Under the pieces are notes generated by a model. That model was not told where the DNA came from. It searched no databases and saw only the letters and a list, made by a program, of their open reading frames with translations. Both the position numbers and the translations under genes were made by a program. Source: a virus. From it: a stretch of DNA of 64,000 nt. Below, piece after piece: positions 1 to 48,079 of this stretch (position 1 is its first letter; every line of letters begins with the position of its first letter). The stretch is taken from positions 177,754-241,753 of the IMG/VR virus record IMGVR_UViG_3300030098_004828; one strand, 5' to 3'.

Positions 1-1
1 A

Positions 2-16812: not shown

Positions 16813-19800
16813 ATGGCAGAAAATCTTAACAATATTCCTACTGTAGAAGATTCAGGTAATTTAGGATCTGTTCCAACAGAAACAGCAAACATAGGACCTG
16901 GTCAAACTCCTATGTTTAATTTACCTAGTGCTTCTATTAACCCTGCAAATTTTGCACCTGATTATAAAACAGCTCTTGATCAAATAGACTTTTCTCCTTT
17001 AACAGAAAGAGCTTATGGTCCATCACCTGTTAATCCAGAAACTGCTAAATTAATTGAAATGGCAGCTATTCCTATAAATAGAATAGCATCACCTGCTTAT
17101 AATAATATAAATTCCACTGCTCCTGGTAGAGCAACTGGAGGTTATAATCCTTATTCTCAACAAGGACAACTAGACTTAACAACTAAACAAGGCAGAAATG
17201 AACGTTTAGCTCAAGCATTTATGAATGCTTCTGATAGTACAGGAGCAGATACGACTCCTGGATATCAAGATCCTTTAGTATTTGGATCTAAGAAATTTAA
17301 CTATGATAGAATGATGGCCCATCCTAATTCTGGTGAACTAGGTTTCCATCCTTTATATGATAATGAATCTTATTATAATAAAAATTCTACATGGTATGAT
17401 GACAGTAGAAGAATGGGTAAACAGTGGCGTAGAATGTTTAGCAATGCTTTTATGAGCTCATATAGAAATATAGGAGATATGTTAAGTGGAAATTGGAGTT
17501 GGAGTGACGATGAAGGTGCTGCTATAATGGAAGATGCAATGAGAATAGGTTCATCTACTAGAGGTGGCTTCACAGAATGGTTACATAATACCACATTAAG
17601 CAGTGCTTATACTGCGGGTATTATGACTAATATAGGAGTAGAAATGGGTGTGTTAGCATTAGCTACAGCTGCAACTGGAGGTACAGCTGCACCTGCTACT
17701 GTTACTAAAGCTGCTCAATCATTATATTCAGGAGTAAGAGGTATATTTAATTCTGTTAAAAGTGTAAGTGCTATAAGTAATACTTTAAAAGCATTTAGAC
17801 TTCCTACAGTATCAAAAGATTTTTGGAATGCATTTAACGCAACAAAAGTTGCACAAGGTATAAGTACAGCTGGACAATACACTGCAAAGTTTTTAACACC
17901 TTCAACATTAAAAGCTTTTAAAGATCTTAGAACATCTGCAGCAGCATTAGATGATATGTCTCAACTTGCAAAAACTAGTAAAGTATTTGGTGCTTTTTAT
18001 AATGATATGAGATACATAAATCTAGCTGTAGCAGAATCTAGATTAGAAGCAGGTTTAGTTGAGAATGAAACCTTTAGTAAATTATATCAAGAGTTTACTC
18101 ATGCAAATGGAAGACCTCCCAATAAAGAAGAATTAGCATTAATGAGACAGCAGTCTATAAGAGCTGCAAAAACAACCTTTATGTTTAATGCTCCTATAAT
18201 ATATCTTACAAATAAAGTTACTATAGAAAAATGGATGGGTAAAATTAAGAGTTTATCTGGAATGGTAAACATGAAAGGTATGGCAGCTAGATTTGTTAAA
18301 AGTCCAGGGAAATTTGGTAAAGATGTTTACAAAGGATTTGGCAGCATGAGAGAAATGATTATGGCTGGAGGATTAAGACATAATGCTAAATATATTGGTG
18401 GTGCTGCACTTAGATATGCAGCAGATGGTGTTAACGAAGGTTTACAAGAAGTCTATCAAGAAACTGTTTCAGCAGCTGCAACACATTACTATGCAGGTTT
18501 GTATCAACAACCTATAGCAGCAGGATATGATATTTTTGAGGTGGCAATGACAAAAGATTCTTCAGATAAAGCTATGCAAGCAGTTAGACATGGTTTAGCA
18601 CACGGTCCATCTTGGGGAGTTTTTGCTTCTGGTTTCTTTACAGGTATGCTTGTAGCACCATATAGTAAAGTGATGTTCCAAGGAATTCCTAATCTATTCC
18701 AAATGGCAACTAATAATGAACAATACCAGAAAGATAAAAAAACAAGAGAAGATTGGATAAAGCAGACAGAAAAAGAATTAAATAAAATGGCTGAGGATCC
18801 AAAGTTTTTCTTTGATCCAAAAAAATTAAATGTAATTGCACAAAAGCAACTTGATGATGAATATTGGAACTTTGGTATTCAAGGTGATATATTAAATTTT
18901 ATAGATACTAAGGAACACAGTATGTTCCAACATATATATACAGCACTTCAATTAGGTAATCTTAATGAATTTAGAGATTATATAAATGATATATTACAAT
19001 TAGATGATCAAGCTTTAGAAGAAGCTTTCATGGATAAAAATACAGGTAAGGTTAAAGATGGTTATACAGCAGAACAATTAAGAAAACATTTTGATGGTTT
19101 AAATGAAAAGTTAGATGTTATTGAAGATAACTATAATAATTTTGATATTGACAATCCTTTTGATAGAAATAAATATGAAGAAGGAACTAGAGATTATTAT
19201 GAAGAGCAAATAAGAGAGTATGCTTTTAATCATGCAAAAATGCAAATGATTTTTAATAGTAATGCAATGAATGATGCTGCTTCAAGAAAAGAATCTATAG
19301 AAGCTGCTATTACGGCAATTACTGGAATGAGTGATCTTATCATAGATGACTTAATGATTCTTACTAGTAGAAGAGATATATTTCAAGAAATAAATAATCT
19401 TAATAGAGATATAGAATCTTTAAAATATTCTAAAACTCCAGACGATAAAAAAGAATTAGCAAAGTTAAAGAAAAAGAAAAAATTACTTGAAGATTTTTAT
19501 GAAGTATTAGGAGATCCAGAGAATCAACATAAAAGTTCAAAAGAATATAGAAATGATAAAAGAATAAAGCAACAAGGAACACCTTATAAAAAGAGACATC
19601 ATAAAATAAAAGAAAGACTTAAAGAAATGGTTGAAGAAAAAAGTCTTCCTGATTCAATTGATGATCCTAAATATGGAGAAAAAGATACTAAAGATTCTAT
19701 TGCAAAAATTACATCACAAGATAGAGATATAACATATATTTATAATCTACATAAAGATGGTTCTATTTCTTATACTGCAAAAGTAAAAAATGATATACTT

Positions 19801-22800
19801 GATAAAGAATTTAAATCAGAAAAACAACTTGAAAGTTATATAAAGAAAAAAGAAAAAACTGTATATGAAACTGTTATAGATAAGAAAACAGGTAAACCTA
19901 AAAAGGTAGGAACATATAAAACTTATGTTCAGGAGGTGATGCTTAAATATAAAAGAGATGCAAAGTCAATGAAAAAATTGATGAAAGTATTCACTCCTTA
20001 TGTAGAGTTCCTTGTTAAAGAATCTGGTGGAAAACCTATTAATGCAGATCAAATGAAAAATGTTTTAAGTATGATTGTAGATTATGGTCATCTTAATTTT
20101 AGAATATCTGATATGTATAAAGCCAATCAAATTCTTAGTGATCCAGCTTCTCTTAAAAGATATTCAGAAAGAATTTCTATACCAATGATAAGACTTTGGA
20201 AGAGACACAAAAGAAATCAAGGTAGAAGAGTTAGAAAGTTTGTTGATAAAGAAATACGTAAACAGTATTTAAAAACATTAGCTAAGGCTGGTATATTTGT
20301 AGATCCAAAACAAGTTAAACATTTCTTATCAGTTGAAAACTTAACACAAGCAGATATACCAACTACATTTTTAACAGATACTGGTGAAATGCTTTATGAT
20401 CCTGTATTTGGACATACAAACCAAAAGCAATATGAAATAATGGTGCAAGCTAGACAAGTTCTTATTGATGAATTAATTGCACCTAAAGAAGAAAAAAAGG
20501 ATGATGGAGATGGTGTAGATACTAAAACAATAGATGATGGATCTACTGCTGAAGATGCATTAAATGAAGATCTAACAGATGATCCCCAAGAGAAAGAAGA
20601 AATAAAAAGAATAAAGGATGAGCTTAATGAGTTTAAATCTGAAGATGAAGATACTATAGCAATACTTACAAGAGAATATGAAAAATATAGAAAAGCAGCA
20701 ATAGCATTAAATATGCCTATATTATCTCAAGCTCAATGGTTACAACAAAAGGGTGGAGGTAGAGCAATATTACAAGCAAGATATCAAGCGTATAGTGTAT
20801 ATAACGAAGATGAAGATAAAGACCAGTATGAAACTTTTAATGACTGGTTAAGAGCAAATGTTAGATCAGATAAAATTCAAAATATAGTAGAGAAATTTGG
20901 TCTTGCACCTTATGCAATAATGATAGAAGATGTAACTTCTAGTAAAAAATTAAAAGATGGGGTTTTATTACAAGGTGAGGTAGATGCAAGTCAAGGTAAA
21001 TATGCAGATTATGACATGTTTATTATTAAAACACCAGGTGCATTTGTAGATGGCAAACAACAATTTATATATAGAATAGTAAATAGTAAAGGTAAGAATG
21101 TATATGATGAAGGTACATATAATAATTTAAACTTACCTCAAGAAATATTTGATAATGGATATCTTACATTAGGAGAAGCAAACAATGCCATTAAAGAAAT
21201 ATTAAAAGCAATTCCAGAAAATACTACTTTTAATTTTGAAGGTCAAACTTTTAAAAAGGGAGATAGAGTATCTTATAAAGGTAAGAACTATGTTGTGTTA
21301 AATGATGCTGCAGACTTTACATCCAGAGGAAAGCTTATGGTTAGAGATGAATTATTTCCTGAAGCAGAGCCTATTACAATAGCTCCTGGTGAATTTACAG
21401 GTTGGAAAAAAGAAGAAACGTCTAATCAATATTTTAAAGAGGCAATAGTTGTAGGTGAAAATGTTCAACGTTTATCTCATGGTAAAGGTATGACTTTTGG
21501 TAAACCTATGAATCATGAATTAAATAAAAATTCAGAAATAAAAAATGAGAAAGATCTTCAAACCGTATTAAAAAATATGGATCCTGAACGAAGAAAGAAA
21601 TTAAGAATTCAAATTACAAGAGCTAAACAACCTAATAAAAAACATGGTGAATCAGTTAATATGAACCATGGAGAAATAAATCCTGTAATTAAAAAAGGTA
21701 GTAAAAGATTTAATGTTTTATTAATTGATCCAGATTCAGGAGATGTTATAGGAAGATTAGATGGTCTAGATAATTTTATATTTATAGATAAAAAAACTGG
21801 CAAGTCTATTACACCATTAGAAATGACATTAGATAATGTCTTTGATTATTTTAGAAACTTTAAAAGTAAAACTGCTAAACAACAGTTAAAAGAAATAAAA
21901 GAAAACTATGCACAGTTAACTTTAATAGAAGAATTGTTTGATGAGCTTTTAGATGAAACCGGAACAGATAAAGTAACAATAGGATTAGACTCTCTTAAAA
22001 AAGGTAAGATAAATAAAAGTCTAAATATAAGTGCTACAGATAAAGGTAAAGAACTAACAGAAAAACTTAAAGATGTATTTGTACATGTAACTCCTGGTAG
22101 TAAAATATTCACTGAAAGAGGTAAAAAGGATCATGAAACTCCAATAAAAGAACTTAAATATAAATATATAAACCAAAATGGTAATATGTTTATATTAGAT
22201 ACATCTAATTTAGGATCTGATATTTCAGATTTAGAGTATAGTAATCAATTAGCTATACGTGAAGCAATAGATAGACAGGGTCTTGGTGGACTTACTGGTA
22301 GATATATTCTTGCAGTAAGAACTCCAAACAATATGTATAAAGGTGGTTATTTTCATTTAGTTGAATTAAGAACCACATCAATGTCACAAGAAGACACACA
22401 ATTATTATTTAATGATATAATGTCTCAACAAAAGTTGACAGTATCTACAAATATAAATAAAAGAGGAAAAGTATTACAAGATAAAAAGAAAGGTTTAGGA
22501 TTTAAATTTAATGAAGCTTTTAATATTGATGTTCAAAATAAAATGTATATAGCAATGCCTCATGGGCATAATGTTAATATTATATTACAACCATCAGGAG
22601 ATATAACATTTAAATTTTCACAAACACGAGATGCTGGTGGTCAGACTTTTAAAGTAAACTTAAATAGAAAAACAATTACAGACGCTAAGTTAGAATCTAT
22701 GCAAGATCTTCTTGACTTGGCAAGTAGTGGTTTAAGAGAAATATTTCAAAATGAATTAAATAATAATCCTCAATTTATTATTCCATTAGGTTTTGGTGTT

Positions 22801-25800
22801 GAATTACAAGCTTCTAAATTAGGTGGAACACCTAGAAATTTAAATGTAAGTCAAATAAGAAATACAATAAAAGCAGATCCTACTTTAACAGAATTAGAAG
22901 CTGATGGTATAGTTGCTATAGCACCTAAAGATGTTACAGGAAATGTCTTTGCACAATTAAGATATAATAATACTGAAGAAGTTAATAATTTAATAGCTAG
23001 TAAAAATAATAAAACTCAAATTGAAAAAGATAGAGCTAACCCTAGTGAAATTAAAAATGATTTATTCACTTTTGAAAGATATCAAAAAGCAGGTTGGCAT
23101 CATTATCCAGAAGCAGCTTTAAAAGCATTAGCAATTAAAATGCTTACTGATGAAAATCTTTTAACTGAAGATGAAAAAAAGATTATTGCTGCTACAAAAT
23201 TAGAAGAAAAATTAAAGACAGGTGAAATAGAAGTTAATGTTGAAACTAATACAGAAGGAGGAGTAGGTATTGTAGGAGATGAGACTCAAGAAGAGTTAAT
23301 GCAAAAGAAAGAGAGAATAGAAGAAAAAATAAAAGAAGCTGAACAACAAGCAGAAGATAAAATATGGGATGAAATTGAAGGAGCTAATCCAAACTTATCA
23401 CAAGAAGATAAAAATGATTTGTTTGATAAGGCAATGGAAGAATGGGAAAAGAGTCCTGATGAAGGTTATGTAAGTTTACAAAATCAGAAAAAAGAAATAG
23501 ATTCAAAAATAAAAGCTGGTAAAATTATTAGACATGATAATTATGATGGCAATGATATAGTTGATCTTGATGAATTTATAGCTTGGTTAAAAGAAAATTT
23601 ACCTGGGTTTATTTCAGTGGAAGCTATAGAGCAATTAGGTATAAACTTAGCAACAAACGGTGTAACAGTTGGTACCTTTGCTATGACTTTAAAGAATATA
23701 GCTGGTAAAATAAATGTTGAAGGTAAAATTTATACTGGTGCAAATTCTCCATTTAAATATCATGAAGCATTTCATGCTGTATATAGAATGCTATTAACTC
23801 AAGAAGAGCAAAAAAGATTACAGGGTTTAGCAGAAAAAGAAGTTAATAAAAAATTAAATTCTAAAAGCGGTTATAGGTATCAAGGAAAAACATATAAATC
23901 ATTAGATACATTATTAAAAGATTTTAGAAAAGAAAGCATATTATATACACAATTGTCAAAATCAGAATTAAAGAAAAGACTTTATGAAGAATATATGGCA
24001 GATGAGTTTGATAAATTTAAAGTTAATCCTAGAAATTCAAAAACAAATTCTGAAATTAAAAATTTCTTTACTAGGTTAATAGAATTTATTAAATCTATAT
24101 TTAGAAACTTTTCTGGAAATGATCTAAGATCATTCTATGAAAAAATTGATTCTGGTAAATTTAAAAATACAACATTACAAGATAATGAATTTACTAGACC
24201 AGGTCAAGAAGTTAATCCTGCTCAAGAGATTACACAATATGCAACTAAGATAGTTATAGGACAACAAACAATTAAGAAATCAGTTTTAAATAGAGAGACT
24301 AACAAAAATGAAATAAAGCCTGTTAATGAAAATATTTACATGCCTGCTGATGAAGAAATTCAGTTAAGAAATAATATAGCAGCATTATTTCTTAAAAGAA
24401 TGGCAAATAATGCTGAATTAAATAAAGCAGCTTTATTACAGAAAACTGTTCAAGATTATATAAACATATACAATCCTAAGTTATCAAGACATAAAAAAAG
24501 TGCTGACTATAGAAATTTAAGAAGAACATTAAAAGCAAAATTAGATGGTTTAAAAAATGCTGAATCTGATATAATATTATCAGTTAAAAACTATTTAAAT
24601 TTATTTGATGTAAATATAGATCTTGCAAATGTTAGTGATAAAGATATTCAAGATCTTGAAGGATTTACACCAGGTGGTGCTAAAGCATGGGAAGCATCAG
24701 CTAATAAACAAGGTGGTTTAAGAAAACTTTCTAGAGATATAAGAATATTTATTGGTTCAACATCAATGCCAGCAAGTGAAGCATTGCTTGAAGATCAACT
24801 ATATGGTATTACAGGTGTACCAACTATAGATAAAGAAACAGGAAAATTAGTTGAAAGTGATATAGAAGAATTAGTTGTTAGTGTAGATGCAGCAACAGTA
24901 TATAACGGTATGTTAAAATCTGCAGGTAACTCTTCAACTCAATTAGAAGTGTTACAAAAAATGATAATGTTTGGTAAAAATAATCCACAAACTGGAGCTG
25001 TAGTAGACAACTTAATGAATAAGGCTGGTATTCAAGTTAGAGATTATGATAGAATATTAATGTTAGATAGCAGTGAACCAGTTGGTGCAATTGGTCCAGT
25101 TTCAGATCCTGTATTTTTAAATGCTGTTATAAAACAAATGACACAATTTACTTCTGATTATTTAAGAATAGAAGAAAACACTAATCCAGAAACAGGCGCA
25201 GGTGTTGTTAGTATTTATGCTGCTAATCATGCAGATGATATTTCTGCTCAATTAGATAGATGGAGAAAAAGATTTTTTACAATAAAGACATACCGTTGGG
25301 AACATCAAAAGAAAGCAAAAAGAAGTAGAGAAGCAGCAGCAGGATTTGCAAATTTTATAAGTATTATTAATGCTGGAAAAGCTCTTAATGAACAACAGTT
25401 AGAAGATAAAGCAAGTGAGATATCTAAAAACCTTAGAAATCTTACAGGTATTGATTTGAGTGTAGGGTTTATTAAATATTCTATATTGCATGAATTAAAT
25501 AATAAAGGTGTTCAATTAGAACCTTTACAAGAAAATTTCTTAAATAGAAATTCAGATTCTTATGCAATGACATTAAATGATGCAAATAAACTTGCAGGAT
25601 TACTTCAAAATAATATTGATATATTAAGTAGATCTAAAGAAAAGTTTAGTAAAGAAACAGATGATAGAGTTAAAAAAGAAAAAGTTGATCATAGAAAAGA
25701 TGGAGCAGAAGGTTCTCTTAGAGATATGGCTAGAGGAAATGCTGTATTTGATGAAAATGTAGGTAACACTGTGTTTACAGATGAAAAAGGTGATCTTATA

Positions 25801-28800
25801 TATTCTCATCAATTACCTACTTATCATTTAACTAAGGTTGCAGAAATTAATAAAAAAGATATTGAAGGTTTAGATGAATTAAGATTAGGAGATGGATATT
25901 TAAATGCTAACTATCTACTAAACCATCCTGCGTTTCAACAACTTGTTAAAGAAAATAAATTTAGAATTGGTAGAGTAAGTGGAAAAACAAAAGCTTGGAA
26001 TGTAATAGATCCAGATACAAAAACTAAAATTGCTACATCACAATCTGAAGGTATACCTTATTCAGAATTTGGAGATGCTGATTTTTTAACATCATTAATA
26101 AATTTAAAATTAGCTGGGTTTGATTCACGTAATAATAAACTATTTAAAAAAGATGTAATAAAAGAAGATGGAACACCATATGTTTTAGCTCCTGTATTTA
26201 TTCGTGTAATAGCAGATGCTTCTACAGGAGACTTTACTTATCTTCCAGTTTTACAAAGTGTTAAATTTAATGAAAGAGGGTCAATAGAATTTACTGATGA
26301 GTTTTTAGATTCTATGGAAGATCTTATTGAAAATGAATATAATAGAATCTTACAGAATGCTGAAAAACTTTTAGGTAGTAATGAAAATGTAGATACGTTC
26401 CTTAGAAAAACAATAGGTACAGGTGAGATTGTAGGATTTAATGAAGCTGTTTCAAAAGATGATATAAGTGATAATCCTGAACAAGATAGAGCATTTAAAA
26501 TAACAAACAATGCTCAATTGATTACAGCAATGATAGCTGAAGGAATGACTTTAAAAGAATCTATAGCTACACTTGCATTAAGAAAAGCAGAACAAACTAT
26601 GAATCTTCCTGAGTTTGTTATGGATACAACATTAGAAAATCCAGATGGTAGTAAAAGACTTGGTGAAACAGAAATTAAAACTACTCCGGTAATAGATAAG
26701 AAAACAAAAAAGAAAACACAAAAGGTAGAACAAACAATAAAGTTAAATGAGTTTACATTAGATGAATTCTATGATCAATTCTTTGATACTAAAAATCTTG
26801 CTGCTAAAGCAACTGTTCAAAGATTAAAAGAAAACATTGAAAAGAGAGATGGAAAAAAAGTAAAAAAAGAATATGTAATTGATAGAATAAAAAAACTTAT
26901 ACCAGACCTACAAAGTGCTCAAGCTTTTGTTTTATTACATGAACAATTTCATATAGATGAAAATCATTATAAAGATATAGAAGGTAAAGAAACACTTACT
27001 GAAGAAATGGAGGTTTCTGCAAACATGTATGCTCTTGAAGAGTTACAAAATAGATCTAAAGCTAAAAAGCAAACAACTGAATCACCTAATATATTACCAA
27101 AGGGAATATATAAACCTAATACAGAAGTTAAAAAGATATTAGAGGATAATGCTTTAGATAATAAATCTTTTGATGAAGTAAGAAAAATTCTTGAAGATGC
27201 TGGTATCCCTTTAAGAGATGTTATAGCAAGTAGATTAAATTTTGAATTTGATAGATTTATAACAAGGTTAATAGATCTAAACATAATTGAAATAAAAAAG
27301 AATGGTGACTATGTATTAAATGGTCTTGATCCAGCATTTTTAAATGGGTTTACAAATGATAAAGGTCAAAACTTAAATGAAATAAATGAAGAATTTCACT
27401 TTCAACCTGGAGAATTACTATTTAATTTAAGACAAATATTCTTTGATGATTATAGGAATACAAAATCAATTAATGAAATATTTTTTGGTGATCAAGCTCA
27501 AGTGTATAAGAATGTAATTGAGGCTATTAAAAGAGCAAAAGGTTCTAATGCTTCAGGTATGAATGTTGAGTTTGGTTTCAAATGGGAAGTAAGTGATACA
27601 TTAACTATTAGACCTTCATATCAAATAGCAGCATTTACACATAAAGATGTTGAATTATCTAAACAATATTCAGAGGGTCAACAAGAGGTGCAAGATGCAT
27701 TAGTAACAATGTCAATACAAGGATTTGCACATTGGAGAGCTGGTCTTGGTTATTTAAAACCAGCTCAAGCTAAATTAATAGACGATTTAATGCAAGGTAA
27801 GCATGTTACTGTTGAAAGACTTTTAGGAAATGGAATAGATACTACAGGTTTAATGCATGAAGGACTTGGTATTAATTCTAAAAAAATGGTATATGATGAT
27901 GGAAAGTCATATATAAAAATGTCTGTAAGAGTGTTAACACCAGACTTTACAACAGATCTAGATACAAAAGAACCATTACCAGGAATGGAAAAACTTCATC
28001 ATTTAAGAGAAAAGATAGAAGCTAAAGAAGAAGAATTATTAGATAAAAATAAAGCATTAGGATTTGATCATTTTGTACCAGTAATAGCTGTACCAGAATC
28101 TGCTTCTAAAAAGTTTAAACAAAATTTAGCTGAAGCAGAAAGTGCATATGATGAAACTACTATTCTTGATAGAAATATAGTAATGCTGGATAGCAAGTTT
28201 ATGAAAGAACAACAAGTAGTTCCTAGTAATAAGATTGAAATTGTAGATCCAAGACAAATTATAAATCTATTAATGAATGAACAATATGATGATAGTGTAA
28301 CAGTAACAATACGTGGAGAAAAATATTCAGTTGCTGATCTTAAAAGATTGTTTAATACAAATGTAGGTCTTAGACGTGAACTTGATTTTACAAATAAAAG
28401 AAATACAATATTAACATTCAATGATGTTAATGTAGATAATCATGTATATAATAGATTGTTTACAGATCATTTGGATAAAATAAAAAGAGGTGAAGTTACA
28501 ATAGATCTAGCTGCGTTTAGAAAGTTTGCATTAAATAGTTTAATGGCTGGTAAAAGTAAAGCTCAGTTGTTAGAATTTTTTGAATCAGATAATTATAATC
28601 TAAACAATCCTTTTACTAACCCAAAGTTTGAGGAATTATATTTTTCATTTTGGAAAGATGGATTTACAACTAAACAACCAGGTTATTCATTAACACTTGT
28701 ATCAGATGTAGGTTATAAAGTTGTAAAGAAAGTTATTGAAGTTGATAAAGAAACAGGAGAACCTACAAGATGGGAGGTTATACCAAAACAAACCTGGATG

Positions 28801-31800
28801 GCTATGACAAAGAATCCTAAAAAGTTTGGTTTAGATAAAGCTCCTACATTAGCAATGAAAGATTTTACTGATCAAGAAGCTGCAACGTTTGGTAAAGATA
28901 ATTTGAAGGAAGGTGATTATTATTTAGATAATCTAAGACATAATGTTATGGAGTATGATTCTAAAGGTAGACCTACAGGACAAAGATATACTGAGTTTGC
29001 AATGCCTCCTCACCATGCAAGTATACTAAAATACTGGAAACCAGGTATGCCAATAGGAGATGTATTAGGTAAAGGATTTGGTATACGTATTCCTACGCAA
29101 GATAAACACTCTGCAGCTAATATGAAAGTTGTAGATTTTATGCCAGCTTACTTTGGGTCTTCTGTTATAGTGCCTAGAGAAATAACTGAGATATCAGGAT
29201 CTGACTTTGATATAGATACTCAATATACTCATTTCAAAGAGTTTTATGTAGAAAGAAAATTAGTTAGAACTGCTGATGAAATAGAAGCAGATTGGAATAA
29301 ATATGTAACAACTCCTTATTCAACAAGAAGAGGGGGGCCTTTAACTACAAGAAGAAGTGATCCAGAATTTGAAGTTGAAAAATCTAAACGTTTATATGCA
29401 GCAAAGATGCGTAGAGAAACAGGTTTAAATTATACTTGGAATAACAGAACAGAAAAGTTTGAAGATGTATATGAAGGAAAGTTTATTGAATATGGAACTG
29501 CTGATACAATAGAAAAAGAATATCAAGAGTATATTAGATATATGATTAAGCAAGCTAGAAAGCCTGGATCAGCTGTAAGTATTGCTATAGATAAATATCA
29601 ATCTAAACAAGGGGTATTAGTTATTGAACAATTTAAAGCAAAAGATTTAGAGATATATGAAAATTCTACATGGGAAGAAATTCAAGAATACTTTAATGAA
29701 AAAGATGATAAACAAAGATATACAAATAGACTACTACTTAATGTATTAAAAACTGAAATGCATCTTCCTGATTCATTAGATACTTATAAAGAATATAAGA
29801 AATTTAATAATGGATCAGAAATGGTGGGTGGGGTAGTACCTTATAAAGCTGCATATAATAATAGAATCTTAGATCTTAAATTTGGATTACTTGGAAATGA
29901 TAATATAACAAAACCAAGAAGAGATGCAGCAATAGCTAAAGGTAATCCTTTGGCTGTACAGAATCAACCTGCTGATTTAGATCCTTTAAATGATAAAGAT
30001 TTACAAAAGAAAATAAATGAAGCATTAAAAGAAGATAAAGATATAGCAGAACTTATAAAAGAAACAACACCTGCAGTATGGCAACTTATACAAGTTAAAG
30101 CTCCTTTACTAGCACAACAATTAGAAGAAGGTAATCTTGATATTGATAACTTATATGGAAAGTCTATAATGAAATCAGCTAATGCAATGGGTACATCTAT
30201 TGTAGGAGCTGCAGTTCAACCAAATGTTGTTACGGCAATACTTAATTCTTTTGGTATTAAAATTCAAACAGCATATAGATATGATACTGAGATAGCACCT
30301 CTATATTTAAATGGTATAACTTATGATGATTATTCTACAAACTTTTTAATAGATCCTAAAACAGGAAAACAAGATCCGGGTAGAAGAAAAGCTTATGTAA
30401 TATCTGCAATTATTACAGCTTTAACAGATAATGCTAAAGAACAATTAACTGGTAAAACAGGATTACAAGTAGGAGTATTAGGTATAGTTGTAAATATGTT
30501 AGCTCTTGGTGTAGATACACAAACAGCATTTGGAATGATTAATCATCCTGCTGTTAAACAAATTTTATTAGAATCAGGAGGTATAAATGTAATTGGTGTT
30601 GCTCAAGGATATATAAAATCAATAAAGCAAGCAATTAAAGATAAGAAGTATACTCCAGAACAACTTAAAAATAAAAGAACTCAGGTTAATGAAAAAGATC
30701 TTTGGGATGATATTAATAAGAATTCATATGAATTACAAACTAATATTATAGAAAATGGATTAGAATATTTACCTGTTCTAGAACAACTTGTTTCAATACA
30801 ATATACTAAAGAATATACAAGTAAAATAATTAAACTTATAGAGTTACTTAAAGCACCTCCTAGAAACTTATGGGGAATGCAAACTGTTATGGCAGCTGCA
30901 AACGATCTTGGTTTAGATCAAACTGATTATCAAATAGAAGTGAAAGATAAAACTCCTCCGTTTGATGTTAGACCTATATTTGAAAATATAAATAATCATA
31001 TGGGAGAATTATGGCAACAAGTTAAAGAATTAAATGCTATAAGTCCTAATGTATTTATTGCATCAAGTACAATGTTTGGTAGAATTGAAAATATTATACA
31101 TAATAGTTCTAGTTTATTTGGTGAACAAGGTCAAAGAGATAGAGAAAAAATTAAGAATAATATTATTAGTTATTTGATGATTGGTGCTTACAAAGCAGCT
31201 GGTACTAAATTTAATGAAACTTTTAATAATGGTTTAATATATCCACAATTAGAAGGTGTTAAGATTACTGATATTATAGGACAGATAAAAAAGATATTAG
31301 AAAATAAAGAAATTGATGGAAAACCAAGAACAAATTATTTTATTAATTTTTATATAGATACAATAAAATCAAAAGATGGTTCAGAGATTGATAAGGTTTT
31401 AACTAATACATTCACTAAAATTTCTGATGCAGAAATAATGAGAATTCAAGTTAGTCTTTTAGAACTCATGGATCCTAGAGATAAAAATTTATCTAAGTTA
31501 GCACAATCTCTAATTAATTATCTTATAGTTAAAGATGGAATGCAATACAGATCAGGTTCATTTGTTAATGCTGTTCCAGCACATTTATTTGAAAACTTTA
31601 TTGCTCATTTAGATAGAATACAAGATGTATTTAAAAAGCTTGAAGGAATAAATGAAATGACATCTGCAGAACGTATGGCATTAAAAGATGAATTATCTGA
31701 TATATTTGGAGAAGATTTTAATAACTTTAGTTTAGATATGATAGACAATATGTTAACTCATATATCATCTAATGGTCATATAAAAAATAATTATCATAAG

Positions 31801-33192
31801 GATAGTTCAGATAAACCTGGTTCTCCTATTGTATTTACTAAACCTCAAGGTAAAAATCCTGCAAGATTGGTTATAGATTTAACTATGGGTACAGGTCTAG
31901 CAATACAACAAGATGAAAGTGATGTTTCAAATGTACCTGTAAAACTTATAACAGATAACGAATTAGTTAATGGTAATAGAGAAGAAATACGAAAATCTAA
32001 CTTAGCTGAATCAGTTAAAGTTGAAGTTGTTAAAAATGGTGTGTCTCAATATAATAATATGTCTAAGTTTCCTTATATATTAAAGTATACTTATACAGTT
32101 GGTTACGGACGTCAAAAACAACAAATTACTAAGCTGTTTAAACTAAATAAAATATATAGCCCGTTAAATGATAAAGATACAGGTTCAAGAAATAACTTAT
32201 TTAATGTTCTTGATTCAAATCAATTGGTGGGATATAGGGCTGAATATATAGATATAACAAATCAGCAAACAGGTTCTTCAGATCAATTTGCAGGAGGAGC
32301 TATAGCTGGAGCTTTACCATTTAACAATGTAGTAAAAGAAGATGCTAGTGAAGAAGTAAGTACAGATAAAGATAAAGGCAAGAAAAGTAAAGGAACTAAA
32401 CCTAAAGGTAATTATGAAAATACAATGTCTTCTGTTAAAGCTACTGAAAATGGTGTTGAAGTTACAACTGTCAATGGAAATACACATAACAGTAATGAAG
32501 TAGATCTTAATAATGCTATGAACCAAGAAGGTGAAGTAGGAAGAGGGGGATCAGTTCTTGATCTAGAAGGAATGGTTGGTAAAGAAGAAGAATTACCTTC
32601 TTTTGAAGAAGCAATAAATATAGTTTCAGAGATGGAAGATACTATTAATGAAATTGCAATGCAACCTGATAATGTAGCTAAAGTACTTTCAGGAGAAAAA
32701 ACTACTACATTAAGAACAAAAAATTTACCAAGTGGAGTGTATAATATTGGTGGACAATTATTTAATTTAACTAATAGAGGAAACTTAACAGTAGAAGAAG
32801 CAGGTGGTGTAGAAGCTATAACTAAATCAGAAGCATTTGCAAAAACAGGTCCTAAATTTTCATCAACAAAAAAATGGCTTGAAGGAGAAGGAAAACTATA
32901 TGTATATGATATTACACCTGTTAGTGAAACTATTAATGAGGCTGAAGCAGCTTTTGCTGAAACATATGATAGTGAATCTGGTCAATTAGAAATAAACTTT
33001 GGTGATGAGGTTGGAGCATCAAGTAATAAGCTGGAAAAGTTTATGGAATTATGGGAAGAATTAGATGTAGAAGAACAAAAAAAAATAATCCAACATTATG
33101 AATTAACAGCAATTGATAATGATATAGTAATTAATATGTTAATGGATAAATCACCAAAAGAAGTAATAGAACGTTTGAAAAAATGTAGTTAA
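16813..33192 (+). CDS. 5459-residue polyprotein: virion RNA polymerase core, two zincin domains, ASCH-like C-terminus
   Basis: One uninterrupted frame of 5459 residues. Residues about 270-330 and 590-630 hold hydrophobic helices. A first metallopeptidase-like site, HEAFH, starts at H2317, with a downstream YEEYMADEF supplying a likely glutamate ligand (gluzincin pattern). A second, HEQFH, starts at H3376, with EMEVSAN near E3400. The RNA polymerase signature lies at about residues 4090-4140: RIPTQDKHSAANM, then DFMP, then SGSDFDIDTQY with D4131, D4133 and D4135 as the probable Mg-binding aspartates of the second double-psi barrel. The order matches the R-x-P ... DFDGD region of multisubunit and crAss-like polymerases. 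Residues about 5275-5390 resemble an ASCH/PUA-like domain (VLSGEKTTTLR). Known crAss-like phages package such a polymerase to transcribe early genes. The zincins may cleave this or neighbouring proteins; that is inference. Confidence 0.85.
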   Translation: MAENLNNIPTVEDSGNLGSVPTETANIGPGQTPMFNLPSASINPANFAPDYKTALDQIDFSPLTERAYGPSPVNPETAKLIEMAAIPINRIASPAYNNINSTAPGRATGGYNPYSQQGQLDLTTKQGRNERLAQAFMNASDSTGADTTPGYQDPLVFGSKKFNYDRMMAHPNSGELGFHPLYDNESYYNKNSTWYDDSRRMGKQWRRMFSNAFMSSYRNIGDMLSGNWSWSDDEGAAIMEDAMRIGSSTRGGFTEWLHNTTLSSAYTAGIMTNIGVEMGVLALATAATGGTAAPATVTKAAQSLYSGVRGIFNSVKSVSAISNTLKAFRLPTVSKDFWNAFNATKVAQGISTAGQYTAKFLTPSTLKAFKDLRTSAAALDDMSQLAKTSKVFGAFYNDMRYINLAVAESRLEAGLVENETFSKLYQEFTHANGRPPNKEELALMRQQSIRAAKTTFMFNAPIIYLTNKVTIEKWMGKIKSLSGMVNMKGMAARFVKSPGKFGKDVYKGFGSMREMIMAGGLRHNAKYIGGAALRYAADGVNEGLQEVYQETVSAAATHYYAGLYQQPIAAGYDIFEVAMTKDSSDKAMQAVRHGLAHGPSWGVFASGFFTGMLVAPYSKVMFQGIPNLFQMATNNEQYQKDKKTREDWIKQTEKELNKMAEDPKFFFDPKKLNVIAQKQLDDEYWNFGIQGDILNFIDTKEHSMFQHIYTALQLGNLNEFRDYINDILQLDDQALEEAFMDKNTGKVKDGYTAEQLRKHFDGLNEKLDVIEDNYNNFDIDNPFDRNKYEEGTRDYYEEQIREYAFNHAKMQMIFNSNAMNDAASRKESIEAAITAITGMSDLIIDDLMILTSRRDIFQEINNLNRDIESLKYSKTPDDKKELAKLKKKKKLLEDFYEVLGDPENQHKSSKEYRNDKRIKQQGTPYKKRHHKIKERLKEMVEEKSLPDSIDDPKYGEKDTKDSIAKITSQDRDITYIYNLHKDGSISYTAKVKNDILDKEFKSEKQLESYIKKKEKTVYETVIDKKTGKPKKVGTYKTYVQEVMLKYKRDAKSMKKLMKVFTPYVEFLVKESGGKPINADQMKNVLSMIVDYGHLNFRISDMYKANQILSDPASLKRYSERISIPMIRLWKRHKRNQGRRVRKFVDKEIRKQYLKTLAKAGIFVDPKQVKHFLSVENLTQADIPTTFLTDTGEMLYDPVFGHTNQKQYEIMVQARQVLIDELIAPKEEKKDDGDGVDTKTIDDGSTAEDALNEDLTDDPQEKEEIKRIKDELNEFKSEDEDTIAILTREYEKYRKAAIALNMPILSQAQWLQQKGGGRAILQARYQAYSVYNEDEDKDQYETFNDWLRANVRSDKIQNIVEKFGLAPYAIMIEDVTSSKKLKDGVLLQGEVDASQGKYADYDMFIIKTPGAFVDGKQQFIYRIVNSKGKNVYDEGTYNNLNLPQEIFDNGYLTLGEANNAIKEILKAIPENTTFNFEGQTFKKGDRVSYKGKNYVVLNDAADFTSRGKLMVRDELFPEAEPITIAPGEFTGWKKEETSNQYFKEAIVVGENVQRLSHGKGMTFGKPMNHELNKNSEIKNEKDLQTVLKNMDPERRKKLRIQITRAKQPNKKHGESVNMNHGEINPVIKKGSKRFNVLLIDPDSGDVIGRLDGLDNFIFIDKKTGKSITPLEMTLDNVFDYFRNFKSKTAKQQLKEIKENYAQLTLIEELFDELLDETGTDKVTIGLDSLKKGKINKSLNISATDKGKELTEKLKDVFVHVTPGSKIFTERGKKDHETPIKELKYKYINQNGNMFILDTSNLGSDISDLEYSNQLAIREAIDRQGLGGLTGRYILAVRTPNNMYKGGYFHLVELRTTSMSQEDTQLLFNDIMSQQKLTVSTNINKRGKVLQDKKKGLGFKFNEAFNIDVQNKMYIAMPHGHNVNIILQPSGDITFKFSQTRDAGGQTFKVNLNRKTITDAKLESMQDLLDLASSGLREIFQNELNNNPQFIIPLGFGVELQASKLGGTPRNLNVSQIRNTIKADPTLTELEADGIVAIAPKDVTGNVFAQLRYNNTEEVNNLIASKNNKTQIEKDRANPSEIKNDLFTFERYQKAGWHHYPEAALKALAIKMLTDENLLTEDEKKIIAATKLEEKLKTGEIEVNVETNTEGGVGIVGDETQEELMQKKERIEEKIKEAEQQAEDKIWDEIEGANPNLSQEDKNDLFDKAMEEWEKSPDEGYVSLQNQKKEIDSKIKAGKIIRHDNYDGNDIVDLDEFIAWLKENLPGFISVEAIEQLGINLATNGVTVGTFAMTLKNIAGKINVEGKIYTGANSPFKYHEAFHAVYRMLLTQEEQKRLQGLAEKEVNKKLNSKSGYRYQGKTYKSLDTLLKDFRKESILYTQLSKSELKKRLYEEYMADEFDKFKVNPRNSKTNSEIKNFFTRLIEFIKSIFRNFSGNDLRSFYEKIDSGKFKNTTLQDNEFTRPGQEVNPAQEITQYATKIVIGQQTIKKSVLNRETNKNEIKPVNENIYMPADEEIQLRNNIAALFLKRMANNAELNKAALLQKTVQDYINIYNPKLSRHKKSADYRNLRRTLKAKLDGLKNAESDIILSVKNYLNLFDVNIDLANVSDKDIQDLEGFTPGGAKAWEASANKQGGLRKLSRDIRIFIGSTSMPASEALLEDQLYGITGVPTIDKETGKLVESDIEELVVSVDAATVYNGMLKSAGNSSTQLEVLQKMIMFGKNNPQTGAVVDNLMNKAGIQVRDYDRILMLDSSEPVGAIGPVSDPVFLNAVIKQMTQFTSDYLRIEENTNPETGAGVVSIYAANHADDISAQLDRWRKRFFTIKTYRWEHQKKAKRSREAAAGFANFISIINAGKALNEQQLEDKASEISKNLRNLTGIDLSVGFIKYSILHELNNKGVQLEPLQENFLNRNSDSYAMTLNDANKLAGLLQNNIDILSRSKEKFSKETDDRVKKEKVDHRKDGAEGSLRDMARGNAVFDENVGNTVFTDEKGDLIYSHQLPTYHLTKVAEINKKDIEGLDELRLGDGYLNANYLLNHPAFQQLVKENKFRIGRVSGKTKAWNVIDPDTKTKIATSQSEGIPYSEFGDADFLTSLINLKLAGFDSRNNKLFKKDVIKEDGTPYVLAPVFIRVIADASTGDFTYLPVLQSVKFNERGSIEFTDEFLDSMEDLIENEYNRILQNAEKLLGSNENVDTFLRKTIGTGEIVGFNEAVSKDDISDNPEQDRAFKITNNAQLITAMIAEGMTLKESIATLALRKAEQTMNLPEFVMDTTLENPDGSKRLGETEIKTTPVIDKKTKKKTQKVEQTIKLNEFTLDEFYDQFFDTKNLAAKATVQRLKENIEKRDGKKVKKEYVIDRIKKLIPDLQSAQAFVLLHEQFHIDENHYKDIEGKETLTEEMEVSANMYALEELQNRSKAKKQTTESPNILPKGIYKPNTEVKKILEDNALDNKSFDEVRKILEDAGIPLRDVIASRLNFEFDRFITRLIDLNIIEIKKNGDYVLNGLDPAFLNGFTNDKGQNLNEINEEFHFQPGELLFNLRQIFFDDYRNTKSINEIFFGDQAQVYKNVIEAIKRAKGSNASGMNVEFGFKWEVSDTLTIRPSYQIAAFTHKDVELSKQYSEGQQEVQDALVTMSIQGFAHWRAGLGYLKPAQAKLIDDLMQGKHVTVERLLGNGIDTTGLMHEGLGINSKKMVYDDGKSYIKMSVRVLTPDFTTDLDTKEPLPGMEKLHHLREKIEAKEEELLDKNKALGFDHFVPVIAVPESASKKFKQNLAEAESAYDETTILDRNIVMLDSKFMKEQQVVPSNKIEIVDPRQIINLLMNEQYDDSVTVTIRGEKYSVADLKRLFNTNVGLRRELDFTNKRNTILTFNDVNVDNHVYNRLFTDHLDKIKRGEVTIDLAAFRKFALNSLMAGKSKAQLLEFFESDNYNLNNPFTNPKFEELYFSFWKDGFTTKQPGYSLTLVSDVGYKVVKKVIEVDKETGEPTRWEVIPKQTWMAMTKNPKKFGLDKAPTLAMKDFTDQEAATFGKDNLKEGDYYLDNLRHNVMEYDSKGRPTGQRYTEFAMPPHHASILKYWKPGMPIGDVLGKGFGIRIPTQDKHSAANMKVVDFMPAYFGSSVIVPREITEISGSDFDIDTQYTHFKEFYVERKLVRTADEIEADWNKYVTTPYSTRRGGPLTTRRSDPEFEVEKSKRLYAAKMRRETGLNYTWNNRTEKFEDVYEGKFIEYGTADTIEKEYQEYIRYMIKQARKPGSAVSIAIDKYQSKQGVLVIEQFKAKDLEIYENSTWEEIQEYFNEKDDKQRYTNRLLLNVLKTEMHLPDSLDTYKEYKKFNNGSEMVGGVVPYKAAYNNRILDLKFGLLGNDNITKPRRDAAIAKGNPLAVQNQPADLDPLNDKDLQKKINEALKEDKDIAELIKETTPAVWQLIQVKAPLLAQQLEEGNLDIDNLYGKSIMKSANAMGTSIVGAAVQPNVVTAILNSFGIKIQTAYRYDTEIAPLYLNGITYDDYSTNFLIDPKTGKQDPGRRKAYVISAIITALTDNAKEQLTGKTGLQVGVLGIVVNMLALGVDTQTAFGMINHPAVKQILLESGGINVIGVAQGYIKSIKQAIKDKKYTPEQLKNKRTQVNEKDLWDDINKNSYELQTNIIENGLEYLPVLEQLVSIQYTKEYTSKIIKLIELLKAPPRNLWGMQTVMAAANDLGLDQTDYQIEVKDKTPPFDVRPIFENINNHMGELWQQVKELNAISPNVFIASSTMFGRIENIIHNSSSLFGEQGQRDREKIKNNIISYLMIGAYKAAGTKFNETFNNGLIYPQLEGVKITDIIGQIKKILENKEIDGKPRTNYFINFYIDTIKSKDGSEIDKVLTNTFTKISDAEIMRIQVSLLELMDPRDKNLSKLAQSLINYLIVKDGMQYRSGSFVNAVPAHLFENFIAHLDRIQDVFKKLEGINEMTSAERMALKDELSDIFGEDFNNFSLDMIDNMLTHISSNGHIKNNYHKDSSDKPGSPIVFTKPQGKNPARLVIDLTMGTGLAIQQDESDVSNVPVKLITDNELVNGNREEIRKSNLAESVKVEVVKNGVSQYNNMSKFPYILKYTYTVGYGRQKQQITKLFKLNKIYSPLNDKDTGSRNNLFNVLDSNQLVGYRAEYIDITNQQTGSSDQFAGGAIAGALPFNNVVKEDASEEVSTDKDKGKKSKGTKPKGNYENTMSSVKATENGVEVTTVNGNTHNSNEVDLNNAMNQEGEVGRGGSVLDLEGMVGKEEELPSFEEAINIVSEMEDTINEIAMQPDNVAKVLSGEKTTTLRTKNLPSGVYNIGGQLFNLTNRGNLTVEEAGGVEAITKSEAFAKTGPKFSSTKKWLEGEGKLYVYDITPVSETINEAEAAFAETYDSESGQLEINFGDEVGASSNKLEKFMELWEELDVEEQKKIIQHYELTAIDNDIVINMLMDKSPKEVIERLKKCS

Positions 33193-33208
33193 AAGAATAT
33201 ATTTGCAT

Positions 33209-36200
33209 ATGAAATGTTATAATAGAAATTCAGGAGAGTATCAAGAACTATACAAAAAGTATGGATCATATCTTAAGACAGACATGCTTATTGATGAATA
33301 TCAAGCTGTTCATAAAACAGATATAATTCCTACTATACAAGACGTTGCACAATTACAAAAAACTAAAAGGACTCAATTCAGTTTAAAGAAAAAAGAACTT
33401 TCTAAAGCAATTATAGCAAATCTTAGAAACAAAGGGTATATACGTAAACGTAATGGTCAATGGTGGATAGTATCCAATAAACAATATGGATACAATGATT
33501 ATGATTTTGATCCCGCTACATTTAGACGTAATGCAGAAGCTATCAAAGCTTATTTACGTTTATGGAATATTCCAAAAGAGTTTTTAATTCTTGAATTTGG
33601 TACAAGAAAAAAGTACCGTGGTTATGATAACAATCATCCATCATTAAGAGCTGCTGAAATTATTCAATGGGGAAGAATAGAATTTGATAAAGATGCTTTA
33701 ACCCTAGAAGATACACTTCCAGAAATGAGAAGTAAAAATACAACACATATTAACATGCTTTTAGAACATTTGAAAAAAGTGTTTCCTCAAATTGGTATGG
33801 ATATTGTAAGTGTTGCAGAAGCAAAAGAATATTATGAATCTTTACCTGCATCACAACAAATGGTTCCATTTTCTCAAATTAAAAGTTATATATATGATGG
33901 ACGTGCTAAAATTATAAAAGGAAGAGTAACAGCTGAAACAGCTGTAGAAGAAGTATTACACCCTTTTGTAAATGCATTGATGATAGAAAATCCTGCTTTA
34001 ACTAAAGCTTTATTAAAAGAAGCTGAAGAAAACTTTCCTGTTTTAGCTCAAGAAATAATAGAAGCATATAGTGATAAAAGAGGATTTACTAATAGAGACA
34101 GACAAAATGAATTACTTACACAAGCATTGTCTAGACATTTTAATGAAGAGTTTGAAGGGAAACCAACAAGAGGTTGGAGAGAAAAAATATTAGAACTATT
34201 ACAATGGTTAGCAAAACATGTATCAGATATATGGAAATATGTATCAGGTAATGAGTTAGTACTTACTGCAGGAATGATAAATGAAAAAACATCAATGAGT
34301 GATCTTGCTAGATTATTAAATACAAAAGACTTACAATTTAAATTGGATGAAAGAGCTATTAAAAATGATGGTAAGATTCAATTTAAATTAAGTAAAAGAT
34401 TACAAGATATCTTAGATAGAAGATTTGCAAATGCAACTGATGCACAAAACAAAACAAAAGAGAAACTTTTTCATCAAGGAAAGGTAAGTAAAGAAGAGAT
34501 TGATATACTTTCTGCTACTGGTGTAAATCCTGTAGATGGAACTAAAACACCACTTACCATTCTAGATAAAGGAAAAGATAATAAACAACATGTATATAGA
34601 AATATAGCTACAGGAGATATAGGTACCTCTGTAACAAGTCTTATTAATGGGGAGTTTGTACAAGAATATCCTGTTGGACCTAATGAAACTTTAGATGATG
34701 TTTTAAATACATATGGTCTTAAGATGGAAGAGTTAATGCTTGCAAATAGAATGACAGAGCAAGAATTAAAACAAGCATTTAAAAAAGGAAAAAATAAAAT
34801 TGGACGTATTCAAATTCCTAGAGGAAATGAATTTGCAATAAATAGAGAAATAGGTGAAGACTTTGATAACATTATGAACGGTTTAGCTGAAGGATTACCT
34901 TGGAATGAGATTAAAGAAGATATGACTTTTGAAAGAGTACCAGAAGCTTTAGCTGAAAAATTTTATAATCAAGTTTTAGATTTATTATACAATGAAGTAA
35001 CAAGTACACCAAACTGGTTTTCAAGAGGTGCAATTGTAGTTCCACAAGTTGTAGTTTCAAATATAATTAATACAGGAGAACTTAATTCAAAAGGACAACC
35101 TATACATAGATTTGTAGCAGGAACTATAGATCTTTTGGTAATAAATGAAGACGGAAGTGTATTTCCTGTAGATCTTAAAACAAGTTGGACAAGTATATCT
35201 GATCCTGCATATAATAAAGGATATCCCGTAGGTCCTGGTAGTATACTTTATGATCCCAGTAAATCACAATCAGAACAAAGAAAACTTTCTAAAAAACAAA
35301 GACATGGTGCACAGGTAAATGTATATGGAAGACTATTAGAAAATTCTGGATATGATGTAAGGGGTAAACAAACAAATGCTGATCTTAGAGCTATTACATT
35401 TCATTTTCAAGTTAAATTAGATAAAAACAATGAAAAGTTAGTTGATTATAATTATGATGGAAGTAAGAATCATGTTCCTGGTCATTTTGATGATATAGCA
35501 GAAAAAATTGCACCATATCAAGTAGATAAAAAAAGACAAAAGCAAGTTCAATCAGAAAGTGTAGATCAGTATCTTGAAGAAGAAGACAATAGTAAACAAC
35601 TAGCAGAAGAAGAAATAATTGCTTCAGATACATATCAAGCTATATTTGAAGTAATGGATCAGTTTCAGCAACACTTAATATCAAGAAGAAAAGCTGTTGA
35701 TAGATTAAGAGAGTCTGTTAAACTAATGGGAACTAAAGCTCAAGAAATAGAGAAGATAGATTTTGCAATATCTGCTATAACTTTAGCAATGAGAGATGCA
35801 AAAGTTGATGTATTATATACTGAACTTCTTAGAGATGCTATAAAACAATTAGATAGCTTTTTAGAATATATAGATCCTGCAAGAGGAAATGCAACTCATC
35901 CAGAATTTATTTCTAAAGTTGTAAACTTTCAAAGAACATTAGAAGGATTTCAAGGTTTAACAAAACTTACAAAGAATGAAGGTTTAACTAATGAACAACT
36001 TAAATTAAAAGACACACTTCAAACAAAATTAACTGAGATAGCAGATGGAGGAGATTCTAAAATAAATTTAGCTATAGATGATTATGTTAGAACTCTTGTT
36101 AGAAATGAATCATCTAGAGATTTTGATGATCAAGATTTAGATCTATTGATGCGAAGAGGACAAGATATAGGAATGGCAATTTATTATACTGGTGATATGG

Positions 36201-48000: not shown

Positions 48001-48079
48001 AGATTATCCTGATGGAATATATAATTTGATTATTACATATGATAAAATAAGAATAACAAAAAAAATAATTAAACTATGA
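45059..48079 (+). CDS. Secreted 1006-aa repeat protein with T9SS type A sorting domain
   Basis: A signal peptide (IWIVLFLCSTVNAQS, cleavage likely after VNA) directs Sec export. The mature protein has two beta domains ending in DSWGDGL and DTYGDGL (near residues 90 and 360), a further beta domain near 475-590, and about 14 repeats of about 25-40 residues of the form GC-x4-A-x-N(Y/F)(N/D)-x2-A-x-DDGSC. The last 70 residues match the Por/T9SS type A C-terminal sorting domain: IIVYPNPTANTFTIE, then VELYNIVGE, then DISDYPDGIYNLII and a basic end (RITKKIIKL). In Bacteroidetes this signal sends the protein through the outer membrane for release or surface attachment. A phage gene carrying it is unusual. 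Its repeats match those of the virion-type protein at the left edge. The stop overlaps the following lipoprotein start. Confidence 0.85.
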   Translation: MKSFIRHSLIWIVLFLCSTVNAQSIDSWIEIEFQFDNYAEEVSWSLYNSTDTISIDTGFYTAGQPNAYEFIELDSGDYTFQLMDSWGDGLSWPQDGYCLISNECQDTLFYASGNYGLGLIESLTIAPCAPPEPAVIDCMDENATNYNSDADVNDQSLCEYPPCEGWGEPFVDQICDGGQALLYWNWEASDNPNCNVIQITYSGENTNSYNFDVNIDNGIWGVYTGNGQMPPNWEEEYSFQAMFADSTMSDTLTYTPYPCTQGCTNDDAPNYNPWATVDDGSCGGQACDVGYTSITIDITLDNWPSETGWSLISGGVIDEHIDGDYNYQDIGQTFSYSYCVMEAGFEFIISDTYGDGLAGSTTGGDLDGDVLIRGCNGDTITQLSNGNWLNAAQENVGVGFGSVAYSGWQQAIICETNDVAGCTNPIYQEFNPEAVIDDGSCVTEHIYGCINENAFNYDENATAMDIYPNCNYELWIGDAAADGWGNSFLGVVQGDNQWTFTMGPGEYEQTFPIWLETDKPVKIFYFEVGGAQTPPEEVAFQTLHNSFKLTNADDVILMYEGWNPFANNGQGALQAFEPPFFQTYQAMPFCGTLCIPTVEGCLDATALNYNEEANTDDGSCIEIIEGCTNELAFNYDEEANYDDGSCEAVVVGCMDEIAWNYNEDANTDGGDCIYLGCTDSSACNFNPNANADSGGCTYADQYYNCSDVCINDADSDGICDELEILGCTSVAAINYMPEATDDDGSCVGIVYGCTDPTAFNYDATANTDNGSCVPVIYGCIDSTAFNYDPAANTDNGTCVEFVYGCTDTTALNFDPLANTLDNSCCYLGGCMDSTALNYDEDACFDDGSCIVIIEGCADPNAYNYNPLVNLPDNSTCLYDAGCYSGPGEPYWLNDPCYAWVIDIDSYCCTEIWDETCQSMYNYCEDGWPVDLDELSGSDIIVYPNPTANTFTIETRLDIDVELYNIVGELIETDNIKRIDISDYPDGIYNLIITYDKIRITKKIIKL
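45467..47693 (+). repeat. About 14 GC...DDGSC Cys-pair protein repeats
   Basis: In the translated 45059 gene, units such as GCTNDDAPNYNPWAT + VDDGSC, GCLDATALNYNEEAN + TDDGSC and GCIDSTAFNYDPAAN + TDNGTC recur, each with one Cys near each end. Spacing is irregular early and tandem late (from about nt 46855). The DNA copies are diverged, so this is an old amplification rather than a recent tandem duplication. Confidence 0.85.

Follow-up and report, generated by a model that had tools for sequence, protein, structure and literature searches.

Terminal cysteines at the unfused joints of virion RNA polymerase cargo proteins in crAss-like phages

A single frame resembles a gp47-like protein joined to a gp50-like RNA polymerase

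We analysed a window of 64,000 nucleotides, which spans positions 177754-241753 of a virus record 245,646 bases long. The record carries hallmark genes of the order Crassvirales: a crAss-like TerL that matches 152 mostly crAss-like records, and PHROG matches to a portal (E 2e-92) and a head protein (E 3e-26). Positions 16813-33192 of the window form a single unbroken ATG frame of 5459 aa on the plus strand, with HEAFH at residue 2317, HEQFH at 3376, RIPTQDKHSAANM from 4092, and DFDID at 4131/4133/4135; when we re-read the frame and its motifs, they agreed exactly with every residue number in an earlier sequence-only reading of this DNA. About 0.07 HExxH motifs would be expected by chance in a protein of this length and composition. 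The features of the locus are:

16813-33192, plus strand: fused virion cargo protein, gp47-like and gp50-like, 5459 aa, by homology to both
16813-24192, plus strand: gp47-like module, residues 1-2460, by profile match to crAss001 gp47 and cr85
23725-24189, plus strand: zincin-1 core, residues 2305-2459, with HEAFH at 23761-23775 and E2392/E2393 at 23986-23991
24310-33189, plus strand: gp50-like virion RNA polymerase module, residues 2500-5459, by homology
26587-27213, plus strand: hypervariable insertion slot, residues 3259-3467, holding HEQFH (26938-26952), putative zincin-2
29086-29217, plus strand: polymerase catalytic region, with RIPTQ (29086) and the DFDID metal-binding loop (29203-29217)
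32653-32928, plus strand: ASCH-like domain in the C-terminal tail, residues 5281-5372, aligned with the slot domain of relatives
33184-33186, plus strand: codon of Cys5458, the only cysteine of the 5459-aa protein
33203-39163, plus strand: gp49-like RNA polymerase-associated protein, TTG start at 33203, likely ATG start at 33209 (MKCYNR)
33215-33217, plus strand: codon of the only cysteine of the gp49-like protein, residue 3 from the likely ATG (MKC)

Searching with the DFDID region retrieved 142 phage records, overwhelmingly crAss-like, and residues 4048-4152 matched crAss001 gp50 (E 5e-14). Residues around HEAFH matched crAss001 gp47 (E 9e-6) and its Dulem41 equivalent (E 2e-8), and the next open reading frame matched gp49 of crAss001, cr85 and Dulem41 (E 2e-26 to 4e-30). 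In profiles from 60 fused relatives, the N-terminal part matched crAss001 gp47 (E 1e-7) and cr85 (E 4e-7) in two collinear stretches, and the C-terminal part matched gp50-type proteins with E down to 7e-27, with free gp47-type proteins and reversed controls remaining above threshold. The comparison with the phi14:2 polymerase, which the sequence-only reading had proposed, bore out its identification of a crAss-like single-chain, two-barrel enzyme: the solved structure, gp077 (PDB 6vr4), was matched with a full-sequence E of 6e-17 in three collinear stretches (789-1037, 1316-1375 and 1585-1835) that span both barrel regions. When the polymerase core was searched by profile against the PDB, 6vr4 was not among the hits; the homology appeared in the unfiltered phi14:2 comparison. 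Pfam and PHROG scans with the giant protein as a single sequence were uninformative. R4092, I4093, P4094, H4099, S4100 and the DxDxD aspartates D4131/4133/4135 are invariant in relatives, and by homology the window's polymerase should contain two double-psi beta-barrels. Virion packaging and early-gene transcription are known for the phi14:2 and crAss001 homologues only. We conclude, on homology, that the frame is a crAss001 gp47-like virion protein fused to a gp50-like two-barrel virion RNA polymerase, the two meeting at a poorly conserved, length-variable joint (residues 2460-2500).

Three gene layouts occur across Crassvirales: gp47, gp50 and gp49 are separate genes in Steigviridae and Dulem41; gp50 is fused to gp49, with gp47 separate, in Intestiviridae and Crevaviridae; and gp47 is fused to gp50, with gp49 separate, in Suoliviridae (cr109, cr6), Fpv1 and the window's clade. 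About 80 IMG/VR contigs carry the gp47-gp50 fusion, with proteins of about 4250-5460 aa, and crAss-like polymerase genes are reported to reach about 6000 aa (PMC10136315). Because it is found in Suoliviridae, Fpv1 and these contigs, the fusion architecture was already known, and the gp47-gp50 fusion is ordinary for the Crassvirales group. We gave virtually no credence to the long frame being an assembly artefact that merges separate genes: the whole record does look chimeric, with two related genomes head to tail, yet the same fusion is present in dozens of independent contigs, in the record's other genome and in the cultured phage Fpv1, and we dropped the artefact as its source in view of these many independent fused relatives.

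The record consists of two collinear, related crAss-like genomes (1-124,700 and 124,780-245,646), the window lying in the second, and is probably a chimera assembled from two phages that occurred together. Identity between the two genomes is 78-95% for DNA polymerase, exonuclease, portal and head protein, but only about 28-38% for the block of virion cargo and RNA polymerase. An exchange of the cargo block between them was considered and not shown; the tree keeps the copies as long-branched sisters (support 0.93). The homologue in the other genome (record 73674-91049) has 5791 aa, HEAGH, DMDND and a single penultimate cysteine. Elsewhere, window positions 1-5776 lie inside a 4217-aa frame (record 170876-183529) that carries, immediately before the window's left edge, a domain of the reprolysin-like M12 metallopeptidase type (E 1.5e-11); the in-window part of this frame has 81 cysteines in 1924 aa, compared with the almost cysteine-free cargo proteins. 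A 1006-aa frame at 45059-48079 has 54 cysteines, or 54 per 1000 residues, and its DNA contains internal repeats (about 224.6-225.4 kb of the record); a PHROG search with it found no match. On the minus strand, 55513-56379 encodes a spore photoproduct lyase-like radical SAM protein (E 1e-28), unusual in a phage.

A hypervariable slot holds the putative second zincin

The slot within the polymerase module ranges from 10 to 368 aa among relatives. HEQFH is not conserved in them, the slot being absent or differently filled, and searches of viral contigs, genome contigs, phage records and all the loci that we collected turned up no relative of the insert that carries HEQFH. Because neither viral nor genome contigs hold a relative, of the two zincins originally proposed the second is retained here as a putative, unproven and lineage-specific one.

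Some 20 relatives carry an ASCH-like domain in this slot; in the window the corresponding segment is instead in the C-terminal tail. The model of the relatives' slot domain (first sequence L030) matched E. coli YqfB with a VIA Z of 8.6 and other ASCH proteins with Z of 6-7, nothing unrelated ranking above ASCH proteins, and Foldseek gave E 0.018 and probability 0.98, indicating an ASCH/PUA-like fold. The proposed ASCH-like end thus has its fold backed in relatives, and the window's copy joins the family weakly, with an HMM i-E of 1e-4 in a one-protein search and 0.008 among 61 proteins; a GExTTTLR motif is aligned within it, and a Pfam scan of the segment found no match.

Some of these relatives have an additional domain in the slot, ART-PolyVal (L042; 33.2 bits, cut-off 31.2) or a GNAT-like segment (L021, weak match), and a PHROG 2072 domain lies in the slot of L029 and in the C-terminal tail of L090; in the record's other genome the slot holds both ASCH-like and PHROG 2072 domains. 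Crassviral polymerase frames have also been annotated as DUF1768 (cr126) or DprA-like (cr109). That ART-PolyVal, PHROG 2072, GNAT-like, DUF1768 and DprA-like domains ride in polymerase frames suggests that the accessory domains of the fusions are injected counter-defence domains.

Lone cysteines lie at the free ends of unfused joints

Cys5458 is the sole cysteine of the 5459-aa protein and its penultimate residue; a TGT or TGC codon occurs once in this frame, whereas the two alternative frames have 71 and 295. The frame that follows has 1986 codons and likewise one cysteine. Among full-length fused relatives a cysteine lies within 10 residues of the C-terminus in 59/59, is the sole cysteine in 58/59, and is found at the N-end in 0/59. 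Of 80 gp49-like frames that follow fusions, 79 have an N-terminal cysteine, at about position 3-4 from the likely start, the exception being a frame-broken piece.

Named phages give the same picture at every free joint end: a cysteine is present at the gp47 C-end in 15/15, the gp50 N-end in 16/17, the gp50 C-end in 12/12 and the gp49 N-end in 12/12. Outer ends have none (gp47 N-end, 0/18; gp49 C-end, 0/20), and joints at which the genes are fused lack the cysteine pair. Cysteines are thus placed where partners meet, at 55/56 joint ends versus 0/38 outer ends; Fisher's test gives p 1e-25, uncorrected for relatedness, and the counts are not independent because the lineages are related. As background, terminal cysteines occur at 8/87 N-ends and 10/87 C-ends of other frames, and they are mostly absent from the other virion proteins adjoining these genes. 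The cysteine counts are independent of the zincin peptides that we used in collecting loci (see below). In the sole exception, crAss002, MSCTPSNPKLDKLL lies inside the protein, and the annotated protein of the close relative cr107 begins with this same sequence; for this reason the crAss002 gp50 start is probably mis-annotated.

Two other loci were looked at in this connection. In L038 we considered whether a gene had split anew and gained a cysteine pair of its own, and dropped this reading, as the short gp49 frame stops just before a homing-endonuclease-like frame; this gp49-like gene (19190-20945) is probably interrupted by an intron insertion. CrAssphage LMMB has a gp45-like protein (L102, 2760-5345) with a lone C-terminal cysteine (860 of 861).

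We suggest that the three proteins are held end to end in the virion as one chain, gp47 > gp50 > gp49, with disulfides at the unfused joints and zincin-1 aimed elsewhere, a reading that we put at roughly 55%. The chain is proposed on the grounds that cysteines are present at free joint ends, absent from outer ends, and gone as a pair where the joint is fused. A single terminal cysteine might have a different partner, such as another virion protein, DNA or a membrane; the cysteines would then be unpaired attachment or packaging handles (to scaffold, portal, DNA or membrane) and their match to the gene splits a by-product of exposed ends. We consider this unlikely: the LMMB gp45-like protein, with no obvious partner, illustrates that a lone terminal cysteine can occur partnerless, but handles do not account for both ends of the middle protein carrying a cysteine when the outer ends score 0/38, nor for the pair disappearing exactly at gene fusions. 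The literature that we searched, with the main phi14:2 polymerase paper outside its scope, holds no description of a disulfide between these cargo proteins; the terminal-cysteine pattern is the new point here, the polymerase-zincin fusion being known already.

Zincin-1 is conserved whether or not its joint is fused

In 60 aligned relatives H2317, E2318 and H2321, together with E2392, E2393 and D2397 as the downstream acidic residues that include the third ligand, are invariant, and no segment except the catalytic DFDID one is better conserved than the 25 residues around HEAFH. This invariance is inflated, because the 80 relative loci were collected partly with two peptides from the zincin-1 domain itself, FKYHEAFH and YEEYMADE. 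The named phages were found through the polymerase region, hence independently of the motif, and HExxH lies near the C-terminal end of the module in 13 of their 18 gp47 modules. The zincin-1 HMM matches free crAss001 gp47 (iE 2.5e-15), and public records label the protein that bears it zincin, ZnMc or peptidase (MT006214, OQ198719, MT774377). Its predicted model has a helical core with pLDDT above 90 and a sheet region below 50. PPEP-2 (6fpc) is its best sequence-profile match, weakly (E 0.0098), and a weak structural match (VIA Z 2.8, 75 aligned, rmsd 3.2); Foldseek with the model gave no significant match, and no Pfam family, MPTase-PolyVal included, was matched. Judged by its conservation, zincin-1, the other zincin of the original proposal, is a real, old and shared zincin-like domain, for which the structural evidence is modest.

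Free gp47 proteins with a C-terminal zincin are found in crAss001, cr85, cr128, Dulem41, LMMB, crAss002, cr271, cr127, cr107, cr3 and Rudgehvirus, and HExxH has been lost from gp47 in phi14:2, DAC15 and cr111. Some lineages have HExxH elsewhere in the complex (gp49-like L086, L087, L088 and L091; L100 gp076; L101 gp33): it is close to the N-terminus in gp49-like proteins and close to the C-terminal end in the Fpv1 fusion.

The sequence-only reading had proposed a self-processing polyprotein that its zincins may cut after injection. Applied to the modules found here, zincin-1, perhaps with zincin-2, would cut the gp47/gp50 joint, whether inside the head or once injected, and so free the polymerase. 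The idea of zincin processing in such proteins is already published, its authors leaving three options (in-head processing, post-injection processing, and action on host proteins); the same work proposed that zincins autoprocess polyvalent proteins that are injected, and P1 DdrB is processed before packaging (PMC5512222). Zincin-1 at 2317 closely precedes the joint (about 2460-2500), the joint is linker-like in its variable length and poor conservation, and the catalytic residues are invariant. Against this, the zincin is retained in free gp47 proteins, where the joint to cut is absent; no zincin lies beside the gp47-gp50 joint of Fpv1 or the gp50-gp49 joint of Intestiviridae and Crevaviridae; the N4 virion RNA polymerase bears a zincin yet is packaged intact (PMC5512222); zincin-2 is unconserved, the contents of its slot being swappable; and the placing of the terminal cysteines points to selection for keeping the modules joined. 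Because zincin-1 is kept in free gp47 and missing at other fused joints, its distribution does not track chain cutting, and we regard a dedicated self-processing polyprotein as quite unlikely, although the fused chain could still be cut after injection.

Zincin-1 may alternatively be a host-directed protease effector delivered with the polymerase, its fusion incidental. Its retention whatever the fusion state, its loss from gp47 of phi14:2, DAC15 and cr111, and the other accessory enzymes in the same chain (ART-PolyVal in L042; PHROG 2072 in L029, L090 and the record's other genome) are consistent with this; conservation equal to that of the polymerase core, among relatives partly ascertained by the motif, would be unusual for an arms-race effector. 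We hold this role to be somewhat short of an even chance, and it is compatible with the chain.

Discussion

CrAss-like phages are the most abundant viruses of the human gut. The end-to-end chain addresses the question of how three proteins of about 150-550 kDa pass, in order and in set doses, through a tail channel of less than 50 Å. The 5459-aa frame encodes the gp47 and gp50 cargo of a Crassvirales-type phage as a fusion, which would be carried inside the head and enter the host along with the DNA, the gp47-like part being an ejection or RNA-polymerase-associated protein with the zincin domain at its end. At each unfused joint a disulfide would link the C-terminal cysteine of one protein with the N-terminal cysteine of its successor; in the window the partners would be Cys5458 and the MKC cysteine of the protein encoded at 33203-39163. 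Such a chain would set the order and the 1:1:1 dosage in which the proteins thread the narrow tail, the scarcity of stray cysteines would avoid wrong bonds in threaded proteins, and the reducing host cytoplasm would then free the disulfide-linked part. The target of zincin-1 may be a host or envelope protein, or a trimming step, instead of the fused joint, and the question about it is redirected from chain cutting to such targets.

The cytoplasm in which virions assemble is reducing, so the disulfides, which the chain requires in lineages with split genes, would have to form late, and after injection they may be broken, or the fused chain cut. Virions of crAss001 contain gp47, gp49 and gp50, and have intermolecular disulfides elsewhere, in the gp57 dimer and the tail hubs; constrictions of under 50 Å in the tail imply that cargo is partially unfolded in passage (PMC10172136). 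Genes annotated as thioredoxin-like lie near the early regions of several such phages, with a relation to these cysteines possible or none. In crAss001 the disulfides would join the tryptic end peptide CNS (gp47 C-end) to CITTNSTIEELAAK (gp50 N-end), and ICGANTLYEL (gp50 C-end) to CAIIPQVR (gp49 N-end). The masses of these proteins are 262.5 kDa for gp47, 276.9 kDa for gp50 and 154.5 kDa for gp49, which would give a full conjugate of nearly 690 kDa.

More generally, it is an even bet that the transcription machinery of Crassvirales enters and leaves the virion as one covalent chain of giant proteins with almost no other cysteines, in which peptide bonds and disulfides interchange in evolution and host reduction uncouples the disulfides. 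If the terminal cysteines couple the proteins, the fused and split gene layouts are two versions of one device. The pattern is the part worth testing, the bond itself being a prediction from sequence, and it helps to order and annotate fast-evolving genes, for instance by correcting wrong start codons.

Comparison with known systems

The closest parallel is crAss001, with the same module order, a C-terminal HEAFH zincin in gp47, DFDVD in gp50, all three proteins found in virions (PMC10172136) and a terminal cysteine at every joint; it differs in having three separate genes, and no insert like the window's HEQFH segment was seen there. The phi14:2 gp077 (KC821624; 6vr4) shares with the window the two-barrel single-chain polymerase and DFDID, and has cysteines at residue 3 and one residue before the C-terminus. 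It is, in contrast, a stand-alone protein of 2180 aa whose gp47-like partner lacks HExxH, the motif occurring in the gp49-like protein instead. The fusions of Suoliviridae cr109_1 and cr6_1 and of Fpv1 (about 4300-4400 aa) have the same gp47-gp50 followed by gp49, with a C-terminal cysteine on the fusion and an N-terminal cysteine on gp49 as in the window; those of Suoliviridae differ in having many in-frame stops under table 11 (alternative code), and that of Fpv1 in having a joint without a zincin and its HExxH near the C-terminus.

Outside Crassvirales, gp50 of N4 (Schitoviridae) is also a giant injected virion polymerase with a HExxH zincin-like domain, packaged unprocessed (PMC5512222, PMC12633501) and structurally studied at full length (PMC12633501); it has a T7-like single-subunit fold unrelated to the two-barrel enzyme, and is one protein in place of three modules. 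Polyvalent proteins (Iyer et al. 2017; P1 DdrB) are likewise large, injected and multi-domain, with zincin, ART and other effectors; they differ in that the core of the window's protein is a crAss-like polymerase, and DdrB-like cleavage is known for the P1 protein.
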